A DNA stretch of 42,745 nt from a virus, in the IMG/VR virus record IMGVR_UViG_3300044613_002301, positions 1 through 42,745 of that record; one strand, 5' to 3'. The notes beneath the pieces were generated by a model, which had not been told where the DNA came from, did no database searches, and saw nothing but the letters and a program-made list of their open reading frames with translations. The position numbers and the translations under genes are program-made. Every line of letters starts with the position of its first letter. Position 1 is the stretch's first letter. Of this stretch, positions 4,342-24,214 are shown in pieces.

Positions 4342-4960
4342 TAAAGGCGAAGACAAGGGAGATTCTCCTGCGGTCGCGTTGACGAAGCTGTACGCTAGAA
4401 ACCTTAGCGTTTCGCAGATTCCTATTCCATGCTACGCGACAGACTTCAAAAAACTTCTCAAGAAGCATAGCTTCGACGAGATTAAAAGGGTCATTCTGTG
4501 GCTACAGCAACAGCCAGAGCATACGAGACTCAAACCATCTTCCTGGTTCGTGTATCGTTTTGACTGGTTGCGGTTTTCGTCAAAGAATGATCTGTCGGAT
4601 TACCCTGTCGGGGATGTTTCTGCTATTTCTCGCAAGATCGGTTTTGAAGGCGGGAATTTTATTCCTAGCACCTACATCCAGCATGCGCTAGATTCCTACG
4701 GGGTGTTCTTGGAATGGATGCGTACTCAACCGGACGGTAAGCCGATTTACGATTTCTTACCCCCGCCGAACGATTTTGTGGTTCGGTGGTTTGGTGTTTA
4801 TGTGCCGAACTACAGCAACCAGTATCGCAAATTCAGCACAGGCCATGAGTCGTTTCGGCAGTACCTTTATAAAGTAGCACTCAAATCTTCGAGTCGCCCA
4901 GTGGCTGACCGGCTTTTGAAGGCATACGAAGAGTACAGGCAGAAGAACGATGTTCTTTAG
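4322..4960 (+). CDS. Unknown replication-module protein (possible helicase loader or replisome organiser)
   Basis: A 212-residue protein with a strong GGGGAGG ribosome site before its ATG. The first 90 residues have the style of phage replication-organiser N-termini (VALTKLYAR ... FKKLLKKHSFDEIKRVILWL). The rest is rich in aromatic residues without a motif I can name. The position between helicase and primase genes supports a replication role. The last 31 bp of the gene (4930-4960) are repeated exactly at 5746-5776, where they overlap the primase start. This gene and the primase therefore probably overlapped directly before an insertion. Confidence 0.55.
   Translation: MSLLPTSKGEDKGDSPAVALTKLYARNLSVSQIPIPCYATDFKKLLKKHSFDEIKRVILWLQQQPEHTRLKPSSWFVYRFDWLRFSSKNDLSDYPVGDVSAISRKIGFEGGNFIPSTYIQHALDSYGVFLEWMRTQPDGKPIYDFLPPPNDFVVRWFGVYVPNYSNQYRKFSTGHESFRQYLYKVALKSSSRPVADRLLKAYEEYRQKNDVL
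4930..4960 (+). repeat. Left copy of 31-bp direct repeat flanking an inserted cassette
   Basis: The 31 bp from 4930 to 4960 are identical to 5746-5776. The left copy supplies the last ten codons and stop of the upstream gene. It also contains the sequence that, in the right copy, forms the primase ATG. Matching ends at both borders (4929 versus 5745, 4961 versus 5777). The repeats enclose 785 bp with three small genes. Confidence 0.9.
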
Positions 4961-4970
4961 TCAAATCCAC

Positions 4971-5005
4971 AGAACGCCCAGGATAACTCAGAGCGAGGAA
5001 AAAGC
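4971..5005 (+). promoter_or_regulatory. Hairpin leader element, copy 5 (diverged)
   Basis: This stretch between the left repeat and the gene at 5006 matches the leaders at 15133-15162 and 15533-15562 in the pattern GAACGCxCAGGATAACxCAG followed by xGCGAGG and an A-rich spacer to the ATG. GAGG serves as ribosome site. The arms CGC and GCG can pair only weakly here, less well than in the other copies. Confidence 0.6.
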
Positions 5006-5374
5006 ATGGAAATTGAAGGTATACCAGAAGGTTGGGAGTTTGTGCGGATAGGGGGTCCAGACAAGGGTGAGTTCGTTATAGATGTCACTGGAGAACCTTA
5101 CGAGTCCGATTCGGATTATCGCGCAAGAAATTACGTCATAATCCGCAAGATCGAGAAGCCAAAGCGATATAGACCGTTTGCCAATGCCGAAGAGTTCAAG
5201 CCGCATCGAGATCGATGGATTGTTAGTGTCGGTAGTAGCGGAGCTAGGCGAGTGACTTCATACACGGAAACCGAAGTTGTTTGCCGATTTACTGCTAGTT
5301 ATGAAAAAATGCTAAAAGATTGTTGGTATTTTGATGATGACGGTTCGCCTTTTGGTGTTGAGGTGACAGAATGA
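5006..5374 (+). CDS. Unknown cassette protein (IPEGW-type)
   Basis: A 122-residue acidic protein that begins MEIEGIPEGWEFVRIGGPDK and continues with beta-rich segments (GEFVIDVTGEP, YVIIRKIEKPKRYRPF). The IPEGWEFVRIG-GxPxxGE opening is a pattern I associate with small hypothetical proteins of planctomycetes and their phages; no function is known to me. It is the first gene of the cassette between the 31-bp repeats and follows leader copy 5. Its stop overlaps the next start (ATGA at 5371-5374). Confidence 0.6.
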   Translation: MEIEGIPEGWEFVRIGGPDKGEFVIDVTGEPYESDSDYRARNYVIIRKIEKPKRYRPFANAEEFKPHRDRWIVSVGSSGARRVTSYTETEVVCRFTASYEKMLKDCWYFDDDGSPFGVEVTE

Positions 5375-5562
5375 GTAGTGAATGCAAAGACGAAGACTGG
5401 GACGACTTTGAATCTTCGATCGTTGAATGCGATCGTTGCGGAGATATACGGAAATGCAAATACACTGCTGATCCGTACATGTCAGAAGTCCACCCAGAGG
5501 AAGAAATCGGCAATGATTGGTGGTGCTACCTATGTTGGGATCAAAGGCATGGAGATGTTTGA
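5371..5562 (+). CDS. Small acidic zinc-ribbon protein, paralog of the 15171 product
   Basis: A 63-residue protein with two Cys pairs: ECDRCGDIRKCKYTADPYM, then HPEEE, then WWCYLCWDQRHGDV. The gene at 15171-15401 encodes the same pattern (ECDHCGEMKRC, DPYMREIHPEEE, YWCYQCWDIRHGD), and this paralogy settles the reading frame against the overlapping frame at 5378-5575. The Cys pairs probably bind zinc. The N-terminus is a run of Asp, Glu and Ser. It overlaps the upstream gene by 4 bp. Function is unknown. Confidence 0.7.
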   Translation: MSSECKDEDWDDFESSIVECDRCGDIRKCKYTADPYMSEVHPEEEIGNDWWCYLCWDQRHGDV

Positions 5563-5579
5563 AAGGGCAAGATAATAGA

Positions 5580-5744
5580 ATGAGTGCGTTAAAGACTGCG
5601 ACTAGATGGGCTATCTATGGCGGCATTGGTCAGCTTATTTTATATCCGTTTGGTATGTCTGATACTGGCGTATGGTGCGGGTGCATCTGCGGTGCAGTAG
5701 CAGAACATCTATGGGGCGATCGAATATGCAGTCGAATGGGATGA
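5580..5744 (+). CDS. Small putative membrane protein
   Basis: A 54-residue protein read from the ATG at 5580, with AAGGGCAAG upstream as a weak ribosome site. Two hydrophobic stretches, IYGGIGQLILYPFGM and GVWCGCICGAVAEHLW, could be one or two membrane segments. It is the last gene of the inserted cassette and stops 1 bp before the right 31-bp repeat. No family is recognised. Confidence 0.4.
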   Translation: MSALKTATRWAIYGGIGQLILYPFGMSDTGVWCGCICGAVAEHLWGDRICSRMG

Positions 5745-8041: not shown

Positions 8042-8883
8042 GATACCGATTTAGCGCAGACAACATAAAGCTTTCCCACCTGCGGTGCTTCGTCACCTTA
8101 GTTGACTCCTTTGATGCGGTAGAAGCCAGCCAGAAACTTGGGATAGACTGTGCTTCTTTAGAACAAAGAGTCAGGACGCTGCAACACAGACTAAAGGTGT
8201 CGCTGTTCACTAAACGGCACAGGTTTTATGAGTGCAAGCTATCAGCATCAGGAGAAATCTTCTACAAGTACGCAAAGAAAATCCTGAGACAGTACGACAA
8301 AGTCTTAAAGGAGATGCGAGCGGTCGATATAACCGGCGGCAGAGGGCCTGTTTACGCAAGATGCAAGATAGGATGCCGCCGTGAAATGCTGACAAAAGCA
8401 GATTCTGTTCTCACCCAGATAGAAAAAGTGTTTCCTTATGGGGTGGTTACATGCCAAAGTGAACTTGAGTTTCGGGACAAGTTCACATCAGGGGAAATCA
8501 GCATGTCGGTCGGGTACACAGCGATCCCTGGCATGGTCAGCGAAGTTTGCGGAAGCGAGATTTTCACTGCTGTCGTGCGTAAAGATTACGATCTGGCACT
8601 TAGCAATTACCCTGTTCCAATAATCTCTGTAGTAGGATTAGCAAACGTAATACAGGAAGCTAAGGATAAGTTGCTCTTATTTTGCGGTATCGAAACAAGG
8701 GTTGTTTGGGAAGTTGATAACGTAGTCGCCGCTAGATGGTCAGCCGAGGCAGGCGCAGGAATTGCAATTATTCCCCACAGAATGCTTACACCTCAGTTGG
8801 TTTCTTTGTTTCCGGAAGAAATTTTCCTAGAAAAGCCGATTTTGGTGCATAAGACACCCGCCTTACAGCGTAAATTGCAGTAG
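8026..8883 (+). CDS. LysR-type transcriptional regulator
   Basis: A 285-residue protein. Residues 17-80 match the LysR winged helix-turn-helix: KLSHLRCFVTLVDSFDAVEA, SQKLGIDCASLEQRVRTLQ, RLKVSLFTKRHRF, then KLSASGEIFYKYAKKIL. These correspond to the family pattern L..F..v...S...Aa..L, avs..i..LE, LF.R, LT.aG. A linker helix and a reduced effector domain follow, with VVRKDYDLAL and AGIAIIPHRM resembling the usual substrate-binding fold. LysR proteins bind DNA as tetramers and respond to small molecules. One inside a phage replication operon is unusual and suggests capture from a bacterium. Its targets cannot be seen; the repeats at 1817-1859 are a candidate. Confidence 0.75.
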   Translation: MAYRLRYRFSADNIKLSHLRCFVTLVDSFDAVEASQKLGIDCASLEQRVRTLQHRLKVSLFTKRHRFYECKLSASGEIFYKYAKKILRQYDKVLKEMRAVDITGGRGPVYARCKIGCRREMLTKADSVLTQIEKVFPYGVVTCQSELEFRDKFTSGEISMSVGYTAIPGMVSEVCGSEIFTAVVRKDYDLALSNYPVPIISVVGLANVIQEAKDKLLLFCGIETRVVWEVDNVVAARWSAEAGAGIAIIPHRMLTPQLVSLFPEEIFLEKPILVHKTPALQRKLQ

Positions 8884-9085: not shown

Positions 9086-10430
9086 TGCCTACAGGCTGAT
9101 GCACGAAGGCAGTCTGGCATTGTGCAAGATGGAATGTGTCGGACTGCCCGTCTGCCGGGAAGAATTATCTCGCGCTAAAGATGCGGTTATTCAGCAAATC
9201 CGCAGCACTGAGCAACAGATGCGGTCGATGGACGAGTACCAGCGACAGCGAAAGAAGTTTGGTATCCGCACTAAGATCGGCTCACGGGAACAGCTTGCAG
9301 ACATTCTGTACAAGGATTTGAACTACCCCGGAATGCAGGTCAACCCGAAGACAGGCAAGATAATTTTTGATGACGAGGTGCTTAATGAAATAGATACTCC
9401 GTACACAAAACTGTTCAAGAAAGTGCAGAAGTTTCATAAGCTAAACAGCACTTACCTTACTGGCATCGAGCGAGAACTGTGCGGAGATCGTGTACATGCG
9501 GTACTCAATACGCATACGGTGACTACTTACCGATCATCGGCAGACAGTCCGAACATCCAGAACTTTCCCATCCGTGATCCTGAGATCGGGCAGATTCTGC
9601 GATCAATCATTCGACCGAAACCGGGAAAGGTGATCGTGGAGATTGATTACTCGACCCTAGAGGTAGTTATAGGAGCTTGTCTGCACGGTGATCCGACTAT
9701 GTCAGAGTATTTGCTGACTGGTTTCGATTTCCATCGAGCCACTGCCCAAGAATGCTTTTTTATGGAGGATGTGCCAAAGCCACTGCGACAACTAGCAAAA
9801 GTGGCTAACTTTAGCCTTATTTACGGCGATTTCTTTGCAGCGATTGCGGCAAAAATGTGGAAGGCAGTAGACGGACTTACGCAAGAGAATTCAGGAGTTG
9901 ATGGTCAGAAAGTATTTGCCCACCTCAATTCTAAAGGAATAAAACGGCTAGGAAACGAGAATGATACTGGCCCAGATACTTTTACCGGCCACATACAAAA
10001 AGTCTGTGACCGCTTTTGGGGGCAACGATTCCCAATTTTTGCTAAATGGCGAAGAGATACTTGGGAGGACTACGCTCGAAAGGGCTATCTGTATACACGA
10101 ACAGGTTTTCGCGTCTGGGGGGTATACAAACGTAACGAAATCCTAAACGTAGAGACTCAGGGATGTGCCTTTCACTGTCTTTTGCGGTCAGTAATCGAGA
10201 TCACCAGACGACTTGAGCAAAGTTCTCTGAAATCAAGATTGGTAGGACAGATTCACGACTCATTGTTGGCTGAGGTTCCCATAGAAGAACTTGACGAGTA
10301 TGTGGGAATGGCGACCGAAGTGATGACTACTTGGCTGAGGTCGCAGTGGAGTTGGATTAAGCTACCTCTCAGTACCGAGACCGAAGTGGGCGACTCATGG
10401 GCTACGAAAGCTCCTTACCATAAAAACTAG
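9066..10430 (+). CDS. Family A (Pol I-like) DNA polymerase, polymerase domain only
   Basis: I place the start at 9066, with GAGGG 8 bp upstream, giving 454 residues. The protein starts in the thumb (YRLMHEGSLALCKMECVGLPV) and has the family landmarks. YRSSADSPNIQNFP lies before motif A, VIVEIDYSTLE (about 189-199). Motif B is RQLAKVANFSLIYG (about 241-254) and motif C is VGQIHDSLLAEV (about 392-403). There is no 3'-5' exonuclease domain; a matching exonuclease with UDG-like domain is encoded separately at 21206-22417. It is followed by an HNH gene. Catalytic Asp residues and motif B Arg/Lys are present, so it should be active. Confidence 0.9.
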   Translation: MKPASPSAYRLMHEGSLALCKMECVGLPVCREELSRAKDAVIQQIRSTEQQMRSMDEYQRQRKKFGIRTKIGSREQLADILYKDLNYPGMQVNPKTGKIIFDDEVLNEIDTPYTKLFKKVQKFHKLNSTYLTGIERELCGDRVHAVLNTHTVTTYRSSADSPNIQNFPIRDPEIGQILRSIIRPKPGKVIVEIDYSTLEVVIGACLHGDPTMSEYLLTGFDFHRATAQECFFMEDVPKPLRQLAKVANFSLIYGDFFAAIAAKMWKAVDGLTQENSGVDGQKVFAHLNSKGIKRLGNENDTGPDTFTGHIQKVCDRFWGQRFPIFAKWRRDTWEDYARKGYLYTRTGFRVWGVYKRNEILNVETQGCAFHCLLRSVIEITRRLEQSSLKSRLVGQIHDSLLAEVPIEELDEYVGMATEVMTTWLRSQWSWIKLPLSTETEVGDSWATKAPYHKN

Positions 10431-13124: not shown

Positions 13125-14192
13125 ATGCGTATTTCATCATCTAAGACCCGCCAAGAAAATAAAGCCAACAACACGGTCGGCGTTCTTCGCGTTCCGCAGG
13201 GAATCGACCTTTGGAAGGTCGAAAAGCCCGGGATGTACCAGATGGTCATTCTTCCGTACAAGGTTCCGGACGGGGCGAAACACCCCTACGCAAAACCTGG
13301 GGAATTCCATTACAGCCGCGATTACTACATCCACCGCAACTTTGGTCCGTCCGGTAAAGACTACGCGATCTGCCCTCGGTTGACTGTCGGCGCTCCTTGC
13401 CCGATCTGCGAAGCGATCAAGCAACAGCTTGCCGCTGGCAACATCGACAAGGACACCGCTAAGAAGATGTCTGCGTCTCACAGGACGCTGTACAACGTCT
13501 GGTTGCCTAAAGAAAACAAGGTCGTACTGTTCGACACCAGCTTCTTCGGATTTACCGAAGTTCTGAATGCGGCAGTCGATGCCAAGGTGCAGATTCCAGG
13601 CATGGAGTGGGCCGATTACTTCGCGGACCCTGTTGAGGGTTCTACGCTCTACGTCCAGTACGTCGAGCAACCCCTTCCTTCGCCCGGCGCAAAGTTTTGC
13701 AAGGCGATTTCCATCGACTTTGTACAGCACAAAGAAGCGATTCCTGCCGAGATTCTGTCTCAGGCAGTATCTCTCGACTTGTCGCTAGTCGTCGAAAACT
13801 ACGATGTCCTCAAGAATCGATTCTGGGACACCGAGCCAGTCGCTACGGAAAGCGCACAGGAGCAGGAAACTCCTGTCACAAGGACGCAGGTTGCAGTGAC
13901 GCAACCTCAGACACCGAAGTCTGCACCGGCTGAACCTCCTGCGGTAGCCCCAAAGGTGACTGGATTCACCAAGGGACAGATTCTGCATCATAAGGATATG
14001 GGGGAGGTCAGCTTTGTTAAATCCAGCGATGGATCAGCAACGGTTCTGAACAGCCAGGACGACCCAGTCAAAGTCAAGATGTCCGATCTCCAGACACAGC
14101 CTTGGCCGGATAGTCAATCAGCATCCCTATCCGAGCCTGTTGCAGTGTCCAACGGCGGGGACGATGCCTGGGATTCTGGCTGGAAGGATTAG
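13125..14192 (+). CDS. gp32-like single-stranded DNA-binding protein
   Basis: A 355-residue protein with a basic N-terminus (MRISSSKTRQENKANN), a central OB-like core with a zinc-binding cluster (CPRLTVGAPCPICEAI at about residues 83-98), and a long Pro/Gln-rich linker from about 245. It ends in the acidic tail GGDDAWDSGWKD. Basic N-terminus for cooperativity, zinc core and acidic tail for protein contacts is the T4 gp32 plan. It would coat single-stranded DNA during replication and recombination. It is longer than gp32, mainly in the C-terminal linker, which contains a small extra beta domain (VTGFTKGQILHHKDMGEVSF). Confidence 0.75.
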   Translation: MRISSSKTRQENKANNTVGVLRVPQGIDLWKVEKPGMYQMVILPYKVPDGAKHPYAKPGEFHYSRDYYIHRNFGPSGKDYAICPRLTVGAPCPICEAIKQQLAAGNIDKDTAKKMSASHRTLYNVWLPKENKVVLFDTSFFGFTEVLNAAVDAKVQIPGMEWADYFADPVEGSTLYVQYVEQPLPSPGAKFCKAISIDFVQHKEAIPAEILSQAVSLDLSLVVENYDVLKNRFWDTEPVATESAQEQETPVTRTQVAVTQPQTPKSAPAEPPAVAPKVTGFTKGQILHHKDMGEVSFVKSSDGSATVLNSQDDPVKVKMSDLQTQPWPDSQSASLSEPVAVSNGGDDAWDSGWKD

Positions 14193-14294
14193 CAAAAAGC
14201 TTGTCGGGTAGCGCCCGACTGATCTGGTGGATGCGGTGAAGCACCAGTAAGAATGGGCCGTAGCTTTCGCGATCACGGCAGATAGACCGCACAA
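14193..14294 (+). other. Untranslated, hairpin-rich stretch
   Basis: No credible gene is present. Three short perfect stems can be seen: GTCGGG/CCCGAC (14203-14219, 5-nt loop), CTGGTG/CACCAG (about 14224-14247) and GCCGT/ACGGC. None is followed by a T-run on the plus strand, so I do not call a terminator. The stretch leads into the first tRNA-like element and may be part of a structured transcript. Confidence 0.35.
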
Positions 14295-14419
14295 GGTTCT
14301 GCGGCGTGGACAGCGACACGCGGAGAGCTATGCAACGCCTAAACGCATAGACGCAACGGATTCGGAACAGATCGAGTACCGCCAAGTATAGCCAGCAGGT
14401 GCAATTCCCGCCAGAACCA
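14295..14419 (+). ncRNA. tRNA-like element 1 (125 nt, abnormal anticodon region)
   Basis: GGTTCTG (14295-14301) and CAGAACC (14412-14418) form a perfect 7-bp acceptor stem, with an A as discriminator. GCGT (14304-14307) and ACGC (14318-14321) form a D stem two bases inside it. GCAGG, loop TGCAATT and CCCGC (14395-14411) form a T arm that abuts the 3' acceptor strand exactly as in tRNA, with one A-C mismatch. The middle 73 nt are far too long for an anticodon arm plus variable loop. They hold a 6-bp stem CTATGC/GCATAG with an 11-nt loop and no U33-type anticodon loop. A leader element begins 3 nt after it. Probably not a decoding tRNA. Confidence 0.55.
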
Positions 14420-14422
14420 TTG

Positions 14423-14464
14423 AGACGAACGCTCGGATTCACCGAGCCGAAAGGAAAGAGGTAA
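14423..14464 (+). promoter_or_regulatory. Hairpin leader element, copy 1
   Basis: These 42 bp are identical to 14778-14819. They contain the hairpin GCTCGGattcaCCGAGC (14431-14447) followed by the ribosome site GGAAAGAGG, just before the ATG at 14467. The preceding AGACGAACGC is shared with copies 3 and 4. Confidence 0.8.
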
Positions 14465-14466
14465 AC

Positions 14467-14772
14467 ATGAGTAACGACAGTAATGAGACTTCGGTGCAAT
14501 CCGTTGTTCGTCGGCGAATTGTCCAGGCGAGCTTGTGCTTGCGATTTTACACATCGGCAGGGTGGACACGCGAGGAGGTTCGGAAACTGCTGCGAGACGA
14601 CAAACGGTTGGCGCGTGTGTGTCCTCGGTACTTCGATGAACGCGACAAGTTGGGACAAGGAAGTTTTGAACTGGAGGATGGGCTACCACACGACGATTGC
14701 GATTACTTCGCAGTGTACGGAGCGGGCGAACCATTTTCAGCGGAGGCGTTGGCGTTGCACGACGTAGTGTGA
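14467..14772 (+). CDS. Unknown small protein of the accessory island
   Basis: A 101-residue protein. Its first 17 residues (MSNDSNETSVQSVVRRR) correspond to those of the next gene (MSETNEASVQSIVRRP), and the DNA there is nearly identical. After that the two proteins are unrelated. Residues 20-55 look helical (ASLCLRFYTSAGWTREEVRK), and the C-terminus is acidic (DGLPHDDCDYFAVYGAGEP). It follows leader copy 1. No family is recognised; the shared start and different body suggest a cassette with exchanged coding content. Confidence 0.6.
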   Translation: MSNDSNETSVQSVVRRRIVQASLCLRFYTSAGWTREEVRKLLRDDKRLARVCPRYFDERDKLGQGSFELEDGLPHDDCDYFAVYGAGEPFSAEALALHDVV

Positions 14773-14777
14773 TCGTC

Positions 14778-14819
14778 AGACGAACGCTCGGATTCACCGA
14801 GCCGAAAGGAAAGAGGTAA
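14778..14819 (+). promoter_or_regulatory. Hairpin leader element, copy 2
   Basis: Identical over 42 bp to 14423-14464, 355 bp away. The hairpin arms are GCTCGG (14786-14791) and CCGAGC (14797-14802). It begins 5 bp after the stop of the preceding gene and carries the ribosome site for the ATG at 14825. Confidence 0.8.
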
Positions 14820-14824
14820 CAAAA

Positions 14825-15130
14825 ATGAGCGAGACGAATGAGGCTTCGGTGCAATCCATTGTTCGTCGTCCGTGGGATTTTGTGTGCAAGTGGTACGGAG
14901 TGGATGAGATTCACGATTTCATTACACGGTCACGACTATTGCGGTCAGTCGGTGATTTACCGCAAGTTCCAGAGGACGTTTATAGTAGAGAGTTTGCCGA
15001 GTTTCTGACCGAGCAGTATAGGCTTGCGATGCGAAAGGGTGCGGAGTTGGCTGTTGCGGAAATGAGGTCGATGCCATGCGTCCACGATCTTGTGAAACAG
15101 CACAATGAAAATACGACGACTGAGTTTTAG
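14825..15130 (+). CDS. Unknown small protein of the accessory island
   Basis: A 101-residue protein whose N-terminus (MSETNEASVQSIVRRP) is shared with the preceding gene. The body (WDFVCKWYGVDEIHDFITRS ... LTEQYRLAMRKGAELAVAEM) is mainly helical and different. The start is fixed by the duplicated leader. It has no recognisable catalytic motif. The next leader begins 2 bp after its stop. Confidence 0.6.
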   Translation: MSETNEASVQSIVRRPWDFVCKWYGVDEIHDFITRSRLLRSVGDLPQVPEDVYSREFAEFLTEQYRLAMRKGAELAVAEMRSMPCVHDLVKQHNENTTTEF

Positions 15131-15132
15131 TC

Positions 15133-15162
15133 AGACGAACGCACAGGATAACCCAGTGCGAG
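15133..15162 (+). promoter_or_regulatory. Hairpin leader element, copy 3
   Basis: These 30 bp are identical to 15533-15562, exactly 400 bp away. CGCAC and GTGCG form a 5-bp stem around an AGGATAACCCA loop, followed by GAGGAG as ribosome site for the ATG at 15171. The first ten bases (AGACGAACGC) are shared with copies 1 and 2. Confidence 0.75.
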
Positions 15163-15170
15163 GAGTAAAC

Positions 15171-15401
15171 ATGGACAACGAAAAACAACAGACCGAGCAC
15201 TTGGGTTCATCCGATTGTTCGTCGGATGATTGGGATTCCTCGGATGACGACGTCATTGACACCGAGTGTGACCATTGCGGAGAAATGAAGCGATGTTGTC
15301 TAACAAACGATCCGTATATGAGAGAAATACATCCAGAAGAGGAAAATCCGGAGTCGTACTGGTGTTATCAATGTTGGGACATCCGACACGGAGACATATA
15401 G
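15171..15401 (+). CDS. Small acidic zinc-ribbon protein, paralog of the 5371 product
   Basis: A 76-residue protein. Residues 1-20 carry the island N-terminal motif (TEHLGSSDCSS), encoded by DNA identical to that of the 15577 gene over 32 bp (15194-15225 versus 15594-15625). An acidic Ser/Asp run follows, then two Cys pairs (ECDHCGEMKRC, YWCYQCWDIRHGD) separated by DPYMREIHPEEE. The C-terminal 50 residues match the cassette protein at 5371. It is therefore a chimera of the island N-terminus and the zinc-ribbon body. Zinc binding is likely; function is unknown. Confidence 0.7.
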   Translation: MDNEKQQTEHLGSSDCSSDDWDSSDDDVIDTECDHCGEMKRCCLTNDPYMREIHPEEENPESYWCYQCWDIRHGDI

Positions 15402-15408
15402 ACACAAC

Positions 15409-15529
15409 CGATCGGCGGCGTGATGGGAACACGCGACCCGTGGCGATGGCGACTAGGGGCCACACACGGCGATAAAACGAAAGCGAGTTGCGCATAGCTT
15501 GCTAGCAGGTTCGAATCCTGTCCGATCGA
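15409..15529 (+). ncRNA. tRNA-like element 2 (121 nt, abnormal anticodon region)
   Basis: CGATCGG (15409-15415) pairs perfectly with CCGATCG (15522-15528), followed by A. The D stem is GCGT/ACGC (15418-15421, 15431-15434), the same as in element 1. The T arm is textbook: GCAGG, loop TTCGAAT, CCTGT (15505-15521), abutting the acceptor. Between D and T arms are 70 nt instead of about 22-45. They include a 5-bp stem GTGGC/GCCAC with a 14-nt loop where the anticodon arm should be, and a variable-arm-like stem GCGAG/CTTGC (15483-15502). No anticodon can be assigned. Leader copy 4 starts 3 nt after it, as in element 1. Confidence 0.65.
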
Positions 15530-15532
15530 TTA

Positions 15533-15562
15533 AGACGAACGCACAGGATAACCCAGTGCGAG
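15533..15562 (+). promoter_or_regulatory. Hairpin leader element, copy 4
   Basis: Identical over 30 bp to 15133-15162, with the same CGCAC/GTGCG stem. It lies 3 nt after tRNA-like element 2 and before the ATG at 15577; GAAAGGAAAA serves as ribosome site. Confidence 0.75.
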
Positions 15563-15576
15563 AAAGGAAAACGACA

Positions 15577-15849
15577 ATGGCAGAAGACAGTAACGAGCAC
15601 TTGGGTTCATCCGATTGTTCGTCGGGGAATTTTGAACACATTGAAGTCCGTCCGCCGGATTGGGTGCTGAACGCAATTTCCGAGCGATGCGTCACGCATC
15701 ACAACGCTTGCGATTGTAGGGAGTATCGGTTTGCAAAGATGCAGCAAGCTTTGATTCGAATCATGATTTGGGCAGAGCATGACGCTATCAGTGGGGAAAA
15801 AGCTATGGAACACATTTCTAGGAAGTGCCATGAAGCACTAGAGGACTAG
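15577..15849 (+). CDS. Unknown small protein of the accessory island
   Basis: A 90-residue protein. It starts with the shared motif (NEHLGSSDCSS) and then has its own body: PPDWVLNAISERC, HHNACDCREYRF, and a helical C-terminus (IRIMIWAEHDAISGEKAMEH). The HHNACDC segment may bind a metal. The start is supported by the leader and the aligned N-terminus of the 15171 gene. I do not recognise the family. Confidence 0.6.
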   Translation: MAEDSNEHLGSSDCSSGNFEHIEVRPPDWVLNAISERCVTHHNACDCREYRFAKMQQALIRIMIWAEHDAISGEKAMEHISRKCHEALED

Positions 15850-15960
15850 AAATCAAAACGTATTATTACCTTGGCACGGGTGGGGTGTATCTTTTACTTG
15901 GAGGCCCCGAATGTGCTGGTGAGCGAAGAGTGCCGGGTTCCCATTGACCCTAACCTTCGA
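15850..15960. other. Gap with no gene seen
   Basis: The 208-bp gap between the 15577 and 16058 genes holds no open frame I trust. This first part has no clear signal; the second part holds a candidate promoter and a terminator, listed separately. Confidence 0.4.
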
Positions 15961-15966
15961 TATAAT
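15961..15966 (+). promoter_or_regulatory. Candidate -10 box upstream of the secreted-protein gene
   Basis: TATAAT at 15961-15966 is a perfect -10 consensus. No good -35 box lies 16-18 bp upstream, so an activator or another sigma factor may be needed. A 6-bp inverted repeat, TGTCCG/CGGACA, begins just downstream near the expected transcription start. Confidence 0.35.
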
Positions 15967-16002
15967 GGTGTCCGTTCTCCTTTCGGACAGCCGTTATTGA
16001 CA

Positions 16003-16028
16003 GCCGGGAAAGACCGGCATTTTTCTTT
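16003..16028 (+). terminator. Rho-independent terminator or attenuator
   Basis: GCCGGgaaagaCCGGC (16003-16018) is followed by ATTTTTCTTT, the form of an intrinsic terminator. It lies between the -10 box at 15961 and the gene at 16058, so it may end transcripts of the island or attenuate a short leader RNA. Confidence 0.6.
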
Positions 16029-16057
16029 CCTTTAGCCCTATAGAAAGGGACTACGGT

Positions 16058-16309
16058 ATGAAGAGGTTTATTTGGAGTGTTGTTTTGGTGCTTAGTGCCT
16101 CGCTCGGAGCGCAGGCACAGGATTGCCAGAACGGAAAATGCGTGCTTCCACGGGTTCAATCAGCCGTATCTGCTACCGCAGAAAAAGCTGTAAAACTTGT
16201 GGAAATCCCTGTGAAAGCGACTGCACAAGTGGCTCAGAAGTCTGTAAGATTTGTTGCAAGACCCGCCCGCAAGTTCGGCACAGTGTTTCGCAGGGTCCGC
16301 TGTCGGTAG
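16058..16309 (+). CDS. Small basic exported protein with signal peptide
   Basis: An 83-residue protein. Residues 1-20 (MKRFIWSVVLVLSASLGAQA) form a clear Sec signal peptide, with likely cleavage after AQA. The mature part starts QDCQNGKCVLP, so two Cys could form a disulfide outside the cytoplasm, and continues as a basic helix rich in Ala, Val, Lys and Arg (VQSAVSATAEKAVKLVEIPV). It ends RRVRCR. The CQNGxC opening after the signal is a style I know from many planctomycete proteins. An exported phage protein this small could modify the envelope or affect superinfection, which is inference only. AAAGGG precedes the ATG. Confidence 0.65.
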   Translation: MKRFIWSVVLVLSASLGAQAQDCQNGKCVLPRVQSAVSATAEKAVKLVEIPVKATAQVAQKSVRFVARPARKFGTVFRRVRCR

Positions 16310-16318
16310 AACGATACT

Positions 16319-16393
16319 TCCCCTATAGTTTAATCCAGGAAAAACGCGGCACGATTCGTGGCCGATTTGATGGTTCAACTCCATCTAGGGGAA
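16319..16393 (+). ncRNA. tRNA-like element 3 (75 nt, normal length, poor anticodon arm)
   Basis: TCCCCTA (16319-16325) pairs with TAGGGGA (16386-16392), with discriminator A at 16393. T8 and A9 are present. The D arm is GTTT/AAAC with loop AATCCAGGAA, including the GG pair. The variable loop is 5 nt. The T arm is GATGG, TTCAACT, CCATC (16369-16385), with every T-loop signature base. The anticodon arm (16347-16363) has two mismatched pairs, and the loop CGATTCG lacks U33; a one-base shift gives ACGATTC with one G-G mismatch. No CCA is encoded. It could be a decayed or highly unusual tRNA. Confidence 0.6.
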
Positions 16394-16414
16394 CTTAATT
16401 CAGGAGGGTAATCA

Positions 16415-16969
16415 ATGATTATTTACTTAGACGTAGACGGGGTTCTCGCAGACTGGGTGACAGGGATTCAGGTTTCAGCGGAAATCGATCCTTCTGTCTG
16501 GGATACCGTGGGCCACGGTTTACTACCCACGGAACATCAAGCAAAGCTAGATGCGGTAATGAGTACACAGTCATTTTGGACTGGGCTAGCATTGTATCCC
16601 TGGGCAAATGATCTTGTGGACTGGGCATCGACTTGGGGAAAGGTAGTGTTTTGCACACAGCCGTTTAGCTCGCCAGAGTGCTTACATGGTAAGTACCAGT
16701 GGCTAAACGATCACTTCGGGGCCACGATGGAGAACATCGTGTTCATCAAGCAAAAATGGCTACTCGCACATCCGACTTGCCTTTTGCTGGATGACAACGT
16801 CGAGAACTGTAACCGGTTTCAGTGGCGAGGCGGTCATTCGATTGTCTTCCCACAACCCTGGAACAGTGCGGGCATCCCATTGCATGATTCCGAGATGCGT
16901 GAAAAATCCCTGGAACAAATCAGAACATCTATTCGTAACATCTCTAGCATTGTCAGGTGGTATCAATGA
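16415..16969 (+). CDS. HAD-family 5'(3')-deoxyribonucleotidase-like phosphatase
   Basis: A 184-residue protein that starts with the HAD nucleophile motif YLDVDGVLADW (residues 4-14; DxDG with both Asp). Motif II is VVFCTQPFS (Thr in place), a Lys lies near FIKQKWLL, and the acidic motif is LLLDDNVENC. The fold and length fit the phage and bacterial NT5C-like nucleotidases that remove phosphate from dNMPs. It could adjust nucleotide pools alongside the dNMP kinase. AGGAGGG precedes the ATG. The stop overlaps the RecA-like start (ATGA). Confidence 0.75.
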   Translation: MIIYLDVDGVLADWVTGIQVSAEIDPSVWDTVGHGLLPTEHQAKLDAVMSTQSFWTGLALYPWANDLVDWASTWGKVVFCTQPFSSPECLHGKYQWLNDHFGATMENIVFIKQKWLLAHPTCLLLDDNVENCNRFQWRGGHSIVFPQPWNSAGIPLHDSEMREKSLEQIRTSIRNISSIVRWYQ

Positions 16970-23213: not shown

Positions 23214-24214
23214 TACAAGAACTGCGGCTAAAGAATTTCCAACGGCACAAAGACCTCCAGGTCACATTTGGCCCTCACATTACGGCTATCGTGGGCCAGA
23301 GCGATACTGGCAAGTCAGCAATTATCCGTGCGATTCGATGGCTCGTAGAACATCGCCCGATCAGTGGTCTGCCCACCCACGGAACCGATGACACGCGAGT
23401 CGGGATCAAGACAGACAAAGGATTAGTAATTCGGTTCAAGGACAAAAAGAACTACGGATACTCGGTCAACGGTCAAAAGTATCTGGCTACGGGAACACAG
23501 CAACCAGTTCCGGTTAGCCAGTTATTAGCGATGGAGGACATTAACTTTCAGGGCCAGCATGATCCCGTGTTTCTGCTTTCTCTGACCCCGGGACAAATGG
23601 CTAAGGAGCTAAACCGGATAGTCGATCTTTCAGTCATTGATGAATCGATGGCTGAGATCAATAGTCGGGTGACGAAAACGAAGGCACAGGTCACAACATA
23701 CCAAGAAGAAGAGGCTAGACTAGCCAAAGGCGTAGAAGAACTGCTCTGGGTCCAAGAGGCTGTGGACAAGCTGGCTTTGCTAGACGAACGCGCCACAAAG
23801 CTAGAATCGGTTGAGTGCCGCCATGCCGCCCTGGAAATAAAGGTTTTGCGTTTAACTGAATCGGATGCAAAGTTACAGAAATACAGGGAAATGGAAGACT
23901 GGCTTTCTCTGTTTGTGGAGACAGTCCGACAATACCGCGAACACTGTTCTCGCCGGGATTCCCTAAAAAAGGTGGTTGACGGCATCCTGAACCGTAAGTT
24001 CCCCAGTCAGAAATTTTACGACGCAATCGAATCTCTGCTTGCCAGGGCTGAAACTGTAGCACAAATGAAACAAAAGAGAGATCGACTAGCAGTCTTAGTA
24101 GCACAGGCAAAAAGCTGCAACTCGTCAATCGCTATCAAAGATACCGAGATATCCCAAACCCAGTCCCAGATCAAGGAGATTCCAGTATGCCCATCGTGCA
24201 ACCGTCCCCTGTAG
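23210..24214 (+). CDS. SbcC/Rad50-like ATPase, N-terminal half ending at the zinc hook (gp46-type)
   Basis: A 334-residue protein from ATG 23210, overlapping the HNH stop. It begins with MIQELRLKNFQRHKDLQVTF and Walker A VGQSDTGKSAIIRAIRW, typical of SbcC, Rad50 and RecF. A Q-loop region (NFQGQHDPVFLLSL) and about 180 residues of coiled coil follow. The chain stops right after CPSCNRPL, the zinc-hook CxxC. The second ATPase half (signature and Walker B) is encoded separately at 25430. It would work with SbcD (24187) on DNA ends to start recombination. Confidence 0.8.
   Translation: MIQELRLKNFQRHKDLQVTFGPHITAIVGQSDTGKSAIIRAIRWLVEHRPISGLPTHGTDDTRVGIKTDKGLVIRFKDKKNYGYSVNGQKYLATGTQQPVPVSQLLAMEDINFQGQHDPVFLLSLTPGQMAKELNRIVDLSVIDESMAEINSRVTKTKAQVTTYQEEEARLAKGVEELLWVQEAVDKLALLDERATKLESVECRHAALEIKVLRLTESDAKLQKYREMEDWLSLFVETVRQYREHCSRRDSLKKVVDGILNRKFPSQKFYDAIESLLARAETVAQMKQKRDRLAVLVAQAKSCNSSIAIKDTEISQTQSQIKEIPVCPSCNRPL

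Follow-up and report, generated by a model that had tools for sequence, protein, structure and literature searches.

Organization of the array

The window analyzed here is a 42,745-bp stretch of viral DNA corresponding to positions 1-42,745 of IMG/VR record IMGVR_UViG_3300044613_002301, and its genes for a tape measure protein, UvsX-like recombinase, DnaB-like helicase, exonuclease and SSB mark it as a tailed phage. Positions 14423-15849 contain four small genes, each starting within a repeat of about 90 bp that spans an upstream leader and the first codons of the gene. The features of this region, named according to the interpretation developed below, are as follows.

14423..14513, + strand: putative attC site 1 (62.8 bits to covariance model R1, 14424-14512), with R' arm AGACGAAC, extrahelical bases (EHB) in the pattern T-N6-C, a loop containing the Shine-Dalgarno motif (SD) and ATG, and R'' arm GTTCGTC
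14430..14784, + strand: cassette 1, 355 bp, running from C in the AAC box up to AA in the following site; ends predicted for this copy by the boundary rule drawn from relatives' arrays
14467..14772, + strand: cassette gene 1, 101 aa, first ~16 residues encoded by the putative attC
14778..14868, + strand: putative attC site 2 (R1 67.2 bits, 14779-14867)
14785..15139, + strand: cassette 2, 355 bp
14825..15130, + strand: cassette gene 2, 101 aa, first ~15 residues encoded by the putative attC
15133..15224, + strand: putative attC site 3 (R1 71.2 bits, 15134-15223)
15140..15539, + strand: cassette 3, 400 bp
15171..15401, + strand: cassette gene 3, 76 aa, rich in Cys pairs, first ~18 residues encoded by the putative attC
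15533..15624, + strand: putative attC site 4 (R1 69.9 bits, 15534-15623)
15540..15849, + strand: cassette 4, whose 3' end lacks the expected CGACGAA and is probably degenerate
15577..15849, + strand: cassette gene 4, 90 aa, first ~16 residues encoded by the putative attC
15851..15875, + strand: possible attI scar, AATCAAAACGTATTATTACC / AACGTATTATTACC, directly after the last cassette and fitting nnnnAAC-NNN-TTATT

An initial annotation, made from the letters of the sequence, had drawn attention to these repeats, and all of the matches that it listed are real and lie where it placed them. The identity between leaders extends over 42 bp for the pair 1 and 2 and over 30 bp for the pair 3 and 4, and 15194-15225 is identical to 15594-15625. 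The element common to all four copies, AGACGAACGC, occurs at 14423, 14778, 15133 and 15533, and a fifth, unrelated copy lies inside a gene at 23782. At the protein level, proteins 1 and 2 have 11 of 16 N-terminal residues in common and proteins 3 and 4 have 10 of 10; the common part is confined to these first 10-16 residues, and the bodies of the four proteins exhibit no mutual similarity. Searches of Pfam and PHROGs assigned no function to the four proteins, those of genes 1-3 being without any family match. Likewise, the window had no match in Rfam at the gathering threshold, a relaxed Rfam search (E up to 5) of 14150-16420 returned only a tRNA-Ile and a weak antisense match, and the array matched none of 50,697 named phage records.

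Individual cassettes of the window recur in other viral contigs. Cassette 2 is also found in contig L118 with a 97% identical body and the same core (that is, leader plus N-terminal segment), followed by a different downstream core (arm identity 0.77). Cassette 3 is found in L116 with a 96% identical body, and a body related to that of cassette gene 4 is located on a different core in L100.

The L116 copy of cassette 3 (reverse strand, about 580-610) lacks a tRNA-like piece that occupies 15408-15528 of the window. The 7-bp direct repeats CCGATCG that flank this piece indicate an insertion or deletion of ~105 bp. Further members of the same tRNA-like RNA family are found at 14295-14418 of the window, at 17467-17588 of L026, and in L113, L102, L141, L135, L132 and L115. 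These combine an acceptor-like GGATCRG/CYGATCC, a D-arm-like GCGGCGTGGTGGGAACACGC and a T-arm GCAGGTTCGAATCCTGC with 50-60 nt of variable sequence in place of the anticodon arm; the window copies were called by neither ARAGORN nor Rfam. Shortly downstream of the array, a tRNA-Ile (gat) gene is located at 16319-16394.

Hairpin structure and relation to attC sites

Folding of the four copies joined each leader to the coding sequence behind it. In all four, the leader start AGACGAAC pairs with the end of the common N-terminal stretch, GTTCGTC (arms at 14506, 14861, 15217 and 15617), forming one hairpin of ~90 nt. A short unpaired spacer separates its outer stem from an inner stem that contains bulged bases, and the ribosome site and ATG are held in a large loop. 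The inner-arm sequences of copies 1 and 2 differ from those of copies 3 and 4, with pairing retained. Covariance model R1, the training set of which includes window copies 1 and 3, identified exactly four sites in the window (E = 8e-14 to 6e-16).

Additional viral contigs were located with patterns based on the hairpin geometry, and the collections are thus sampled by patterns of the same family. Over 602 kb of DNA from related viral contigs, a structure-based scan identified 152 sites, compared with 0 in shuffled sequence; a strict pattern applied to genome contigs gave 19 matches, nearly all of them attributable to chance or of another geometry. Of the 152 sites, 151 have the second bulged T, for which the scan scored only the surrounding pairing, and an earlier scan in which the bulged C was optional showed C at that position in 93 of 98 sites from viruses. 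The extrahelical geometry is T, N6, then C, 8 nt from GTT. Among 34 diverse sites aligned, 97.7% of pairs were kept through 168 two-sided and 0 one-sided changes, with two-sided changes at 14 of the 16 inner-stem pairs and a covariation score of 0.675 (0.164 when shuffled). Only 15 of 1672 inner-stem cells contained G.T, of which the scanner permitted up to 2 per site. Such Watson-Crick-only pairing suggests that selection has acted on DNA rather than RNA.

This architecture corresponds to that of integron attC sites, which are defined by an unpaired central spacer, extrahelical bases of the R''-L'' arm and a variable terminal structure (PMC2727003, PMC3053210), the extrahelical pattern of the bottom strand being T-N6-G/C (PMC3053210, PMC2727003). 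Spacer, extrahelical bases and terminal structure are all present in the phage sites, where, read on the coding strand, T-N6-C falls in the 3' arm and AACG on the 5' side, and AAC/GTT outer boxes in an imperfect inverted repeat were found in the window as well as in all 34 aligned sites. The full 7-bp core RYYYAAC/GTTRRRY is absent from the window (GACGAAC/GTTCGTC) and present in some relatives (GTTAGGT); since the boxes vary widely beyond AAC/GTT, this strict consensus does not define the family. A class 1 integron served as a control for R1, a model with no training sites other than phage ones, which matched the attC of aadA2 on the strand opposite aadA2 (32.5 bits, E 3.7e-6 in 38 kb), revealing homology to a proven attC. 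The orientation of this match identifies the R1 strand as the attC bottom strand, and hence the bottom strand as the coding strand of the window. We had considered that the extrahelical base might lie on the wrong arm for an attC, an objection dropped once the strand had been fixed by the aadA2 control and by bottom strands with T-N6-C in the literature. Judged by sequence, then, each leader with its N-terminal stretch constitutes one integron attC site, a ~90-bp imperfect inverted repeat. The initial annotation was right to treat leader and N-terminus as a single front end, but it missed both the attC identity of the element and its inverted polarity.

Cassette ends, gene polarity and exchange of gene bodies

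Cassette ends were examined in relatives' arrays with varied R boxes, using 88 distinct neighbours. The R' box of one site matched the R'' box of its neighbour at 4.30 of 5 bases, complementarity linking the 3' box of a site to the 5' box of the following one, compared with 2.26 after permutation (maximum 2.73 of 5000) and 2.38 within the same site, and among informative sites, the own boxes of which are mismatched, 44 of 50 matched the box of the neighbour. Such neighbour-box complementarity is the classical trace of a circular cassette, and the relatives' arrays display it. Within the window the comparison is uninformative because all R boxes are identical. The signature is also symmetrical, and by itself does not tell on which side of the core the gene lies; its use as proof of the crossover side was therefore dropped, and it is retained for cassette ends only. 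Together with the attC anatomy, it bears out an earlier proposal that the leaders act as a recombination handle.

Gene polarity separates viral from chromosomal arrays. Of 99 viral cassettes, 95 have their longest ORF on the R1 strand (clear cases 57:0), and of 83 cassettes in planctomycete chromosomal arrays, 73 have it on the opposite strand (clear cases 54:3), a contrast of 57:0 versus 3:54 in the clear cases (Fisher 4e-29). Viral cassette genes thus occupy the strand opposite to the canonical one, such that each attC precedes its gene. The canonical arrangement (gene on the top strand, followed by its attC) is seen neither in the four genes of the window nor in any of the 57 clear viral cases, all of which use the bottom strand. 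Where protein domains were matched in viral cassettes (Mom, Lar, C5 methylase, GIY-YIG and DUF4326), the ORFs concerned likewise lie on the R1 strand, and large flanking ORFs are co-directional with R1 in 99 versus 39 cases (12 to 0 in the window). Matches to R1 were obtained in 31 of 199 planctomycete genomes, reaching 77.6 bits, and reached at most 39 bits in Verrucomicrobiota. The top chromosomal score belongs to a 4413-bp contig of a planctomycete assembly (L196; G202:C105) with mixed gene polarity, which could be a phage or prophage fragment. Separately, Virus Rctr41k (L212; KX853513.1), from a DAMO/AAA enrichment, encodes an integron-integrase-like gene annotated xerD (4680-5678) and two attC-like sites (8415-8545 and 9305-9434), with genes opposite R1, the canonical polarity.

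The view that the front end is reusable and joined to different small genes is upheld across the family. Core family 1 (MAEDSNEHLGSSDCSS, MDNEKQQTEHLGSSDCSS) comprises 19 sites with 12 distinct bodies and core family 0 (MSETNEASVQSVV) 13 sites with 8, the body counts being approximate as some body clusters are chained. An ATG opening a frame that continues for at least 30 codons past GTT is present in 66 of 136 distinct sites, 52 of these with a Shine-Dalgarno-like motif, and the three GTT frames are used 32, 34 and 0 times among start-bearing sites, which are not independent. At sites lacking a start, as in contig G002, the gene begins 3' of the hairpin with its own ribosome site. Several bodies are found on different cores, with homology starting exactly at GTT. 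Recombination of the top strand is reported to move the crossover to the R'' box (PMC2727003), and an R''-box crossover would be expected to yield body swaps joined at GTT.

Among the cassette products that could be recognized are Mom-like, Lar restriction alleviation, C5 DNA methylase and GIY-YIG proteins (L099:9658, L096:2521, L104:2308 on the reverse strand, and L096:652), several of which have anti-restriction functions. The anti-restriction cargo (Mom, Lar, C5 DNA methylase) suggests that phages may trade counter-defence genes via these arrays.

Integrases and candidate attI sites

No tyrosine recombinase was found in the window record or in contigs G001, G002 and G003, the three array-bearing contigs closest to it. 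Without an integrase gene in cis, the array of the window is classed as a CALIN; integron integrases (IntI) are carried by sister phages. Five viral contigs encode such an integrase, with G311, G310 and G306 scoring 310, 280 and 259 bits, respectively (curated cut-off 265). In an unrooted tree with bootstrap not yet settled, these three IntI group in a single clade (100/99) that excludes IntI1 and 30 IntI from bacterial chromosomes. One of these contigs, G306, has a 123-bp terminal overlap and genes for terminase and portal, and phage hallmarks are also present in G001, L118, L104 and G311.

The arrays of G311 and G310 are placed immediately 5' of IntI. A motif, nnnnAAC-NNN-TTATT, precedes IntI in four of five phage loci, against a background of 0.007 per kb, and its box is complementary to the last attC in two of these four; no such motif was found 5' of IntI in L216. 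We regard the motif as a candidate attI. Directly after the last cassette of the window, 15851-15875 fits the same motif, an assignment that is tentative because the outer arm is not complementary. Only 3 of 53 arrays have an attI-like motif within 1.2 kb, namely that of the window and two beside an integrase, and the window copy is possibly the scar of a lost integrase module. The similarity of the attC sites points to Planctomycetota as the host.

Proposed mechanism and alternative explanations

The hairpin geometry, covariation, cassette ends, homology to chromosomal and class 1 attC, inverted polarity, reuse of cores, and the integrase and candidate attI of sister phages are all features of the sequences themselves. 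We consider it highly probable that 14423-15849 represents four integron gene cassettes in a tailed phage, organized as a CALIN in which the recombining attC bottom strand is the coding strand. Enzyme, strand, crossover and expression in the following mechanism are inferred. The attC strand would become single-stranded, for example during phage replication, and fold, whereupon an integron integrase acting in trans, from the host or a co-infecting phage, would bind it and cut in the R' box at the leader start, between nnnnAA and C. The mobile unit would consist of core and body, i.e. leader, ribosome site, ATG, N-terminus and gene body. With genes pointing away from the attC, an inserted gene would be placed in sense within a phage operon read through from upstream, and its ribosome site and ATG, held in the unpaired loop, would be accessible despite the hairpin. 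The cost would be translation of the 3' arm of the attC as a hydrophilic N-terminal tail. Bodies also occur on another core, joined between G and TT of the R'' box, the cut position published for recombination of the top strand, which generates new N-terminal fusions. A more far-reaching scenario, offered tentatively and with the balance somewhat against it, is that of a phage-specific integron lineage with its own integrase clade and inverted cassettes, in which the attC serves as a mobile, 5' exon-like module and R''-box recombination swaps bodies between start-bearing sites, providing new N-termini and a natural route of cassette birth.

The initial annotation had raised translation control as a function of the leaders and likened them to the start-associated sequences of cluster K mycobacteriophages. 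Extended to the whole family, this would make the hairpins RNA elements governing translation or transcript stability and spread by homologous recombination. The start codons and Shine-Dalgarno-like motifs counted above fit such a role, as does the stable folding of the RNA (z = -5.1 for site 3). However, with an in-frame start in only 66 of the 136 distinct sites, translation control is not supported as the primary function; at the remainder genes begin downstream, covariation proceeds nearly without G.U intermediates, R boxes match between neighbours and not within a site, and the same element is located at the other gene end in chromosomal integrons and beside integron integrases. The cluster K parallel is not supported either, with about half of the sites lacking a usable start and host copies at gene ends, and we judge RNA elements a very improbable explanation. 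Duplication in tandem, with the gene bodies diverging afterwards, was named at the outset as the alternative that would overturn the notion of a reusable front end, and would account for the near-identical leaders in tandem and their regular spacing. It is hardly credible given that the bodies are unrelated and the arms co-vary, and that other genomes have the same cores with other bodies, one N-terminal core alone having 12.

An alternative that retains integron cassettes assigns each attC to the upstream gene, with canonical cassettes, the other strand recombining and the crossover between G and TT. The symmetry of the end signature is compatible with this arrangement, and bodies that occur on different upstream cores with a join exactly at GTT speak in its favour. 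Nevertheless, the coding strand carries its EHBs in the 3' arm, the position they take in canonical bottom strands, and the aadA2 attC is matched by R1 on its bottom strand. Furthermore, among non-syntenic pairs of the same body, the upstream core is kept in 7 of 8 and both cores are changed in 1, the downstream core never being kept alone, and the start codon sits in the upstream core. This arrangement is accordingly considered very improbable, and we favor bottom-strand recombination with inverted genes.

Comparison with known integrons and start-associated sequences

Arrays of attC sites are already known from phages (PMC9892861), as are attC sites from Planctomycetes, for which an attC model exists (PMC8352920). 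Qi et al. (2023, PMC9892861) describe attC arrays, some with an integrase and others lacking one, in phages both temperate and virulent, with small ORFs in the cassettes; these phage CALINs and integrons resemble the family of the window in combining attC arrays with small ORFs. In the parts consulted, that paper makes no mention of phages of Planctomycetota, of cassette genes being systematically inverted, of start codons in attC or of a phage-specific integrase clade. The openly accessible literature searched contained no description of cassettes with systematic inversion or of attC sites harbouring start codons.

In integron theory, the choice of attC strand puts captured genes in sense behind the Pc promoter. 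The present arrays constitute a large, coherent cassette pool whose genes have the opposite polarity with respect to attC, a feature that sets phage cassettes apart from host cassettes within the same site family. They also bear on the origin of cassettes, in that cores provide start codons and bodies occur on different cores, joined at one defined base pair.

The sedentary chromosomal integrons of Planctomycetota (e.g. Rhodopirellula) belong to the same attC family by R1 (up to 77.6 bits), with T-N6-C geometry and the same R'/R'' end signature (4.5 of 5), but differ in having genes on the canonical strand with the attC at the gene 3' end (54:3 in clear cases). Similarly, the class 1 attC of aadA2 has in common with the phage sites its AACG...TTGTT boxes, a T-N6-X extrahelical pattern and a match to R1, but has G rather than C as second extrahelical base, a short loop, and its gene on the opposite strand. 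The start-associated sequence of cluster K, a conserved sequence before gene starts that acts through translation, is by this description distinct from the phage sites. In the reversed layout of Spirochaete integrons, intI and cassette genes presumably read the same way, as they do in the phage arrays. There it is the integrase that is described as reversed (mentioned in PMC9668308), whereas in the phages the attC sites, candidate attI and IntI retain the canonical orientation and it is the genes that are reversed.
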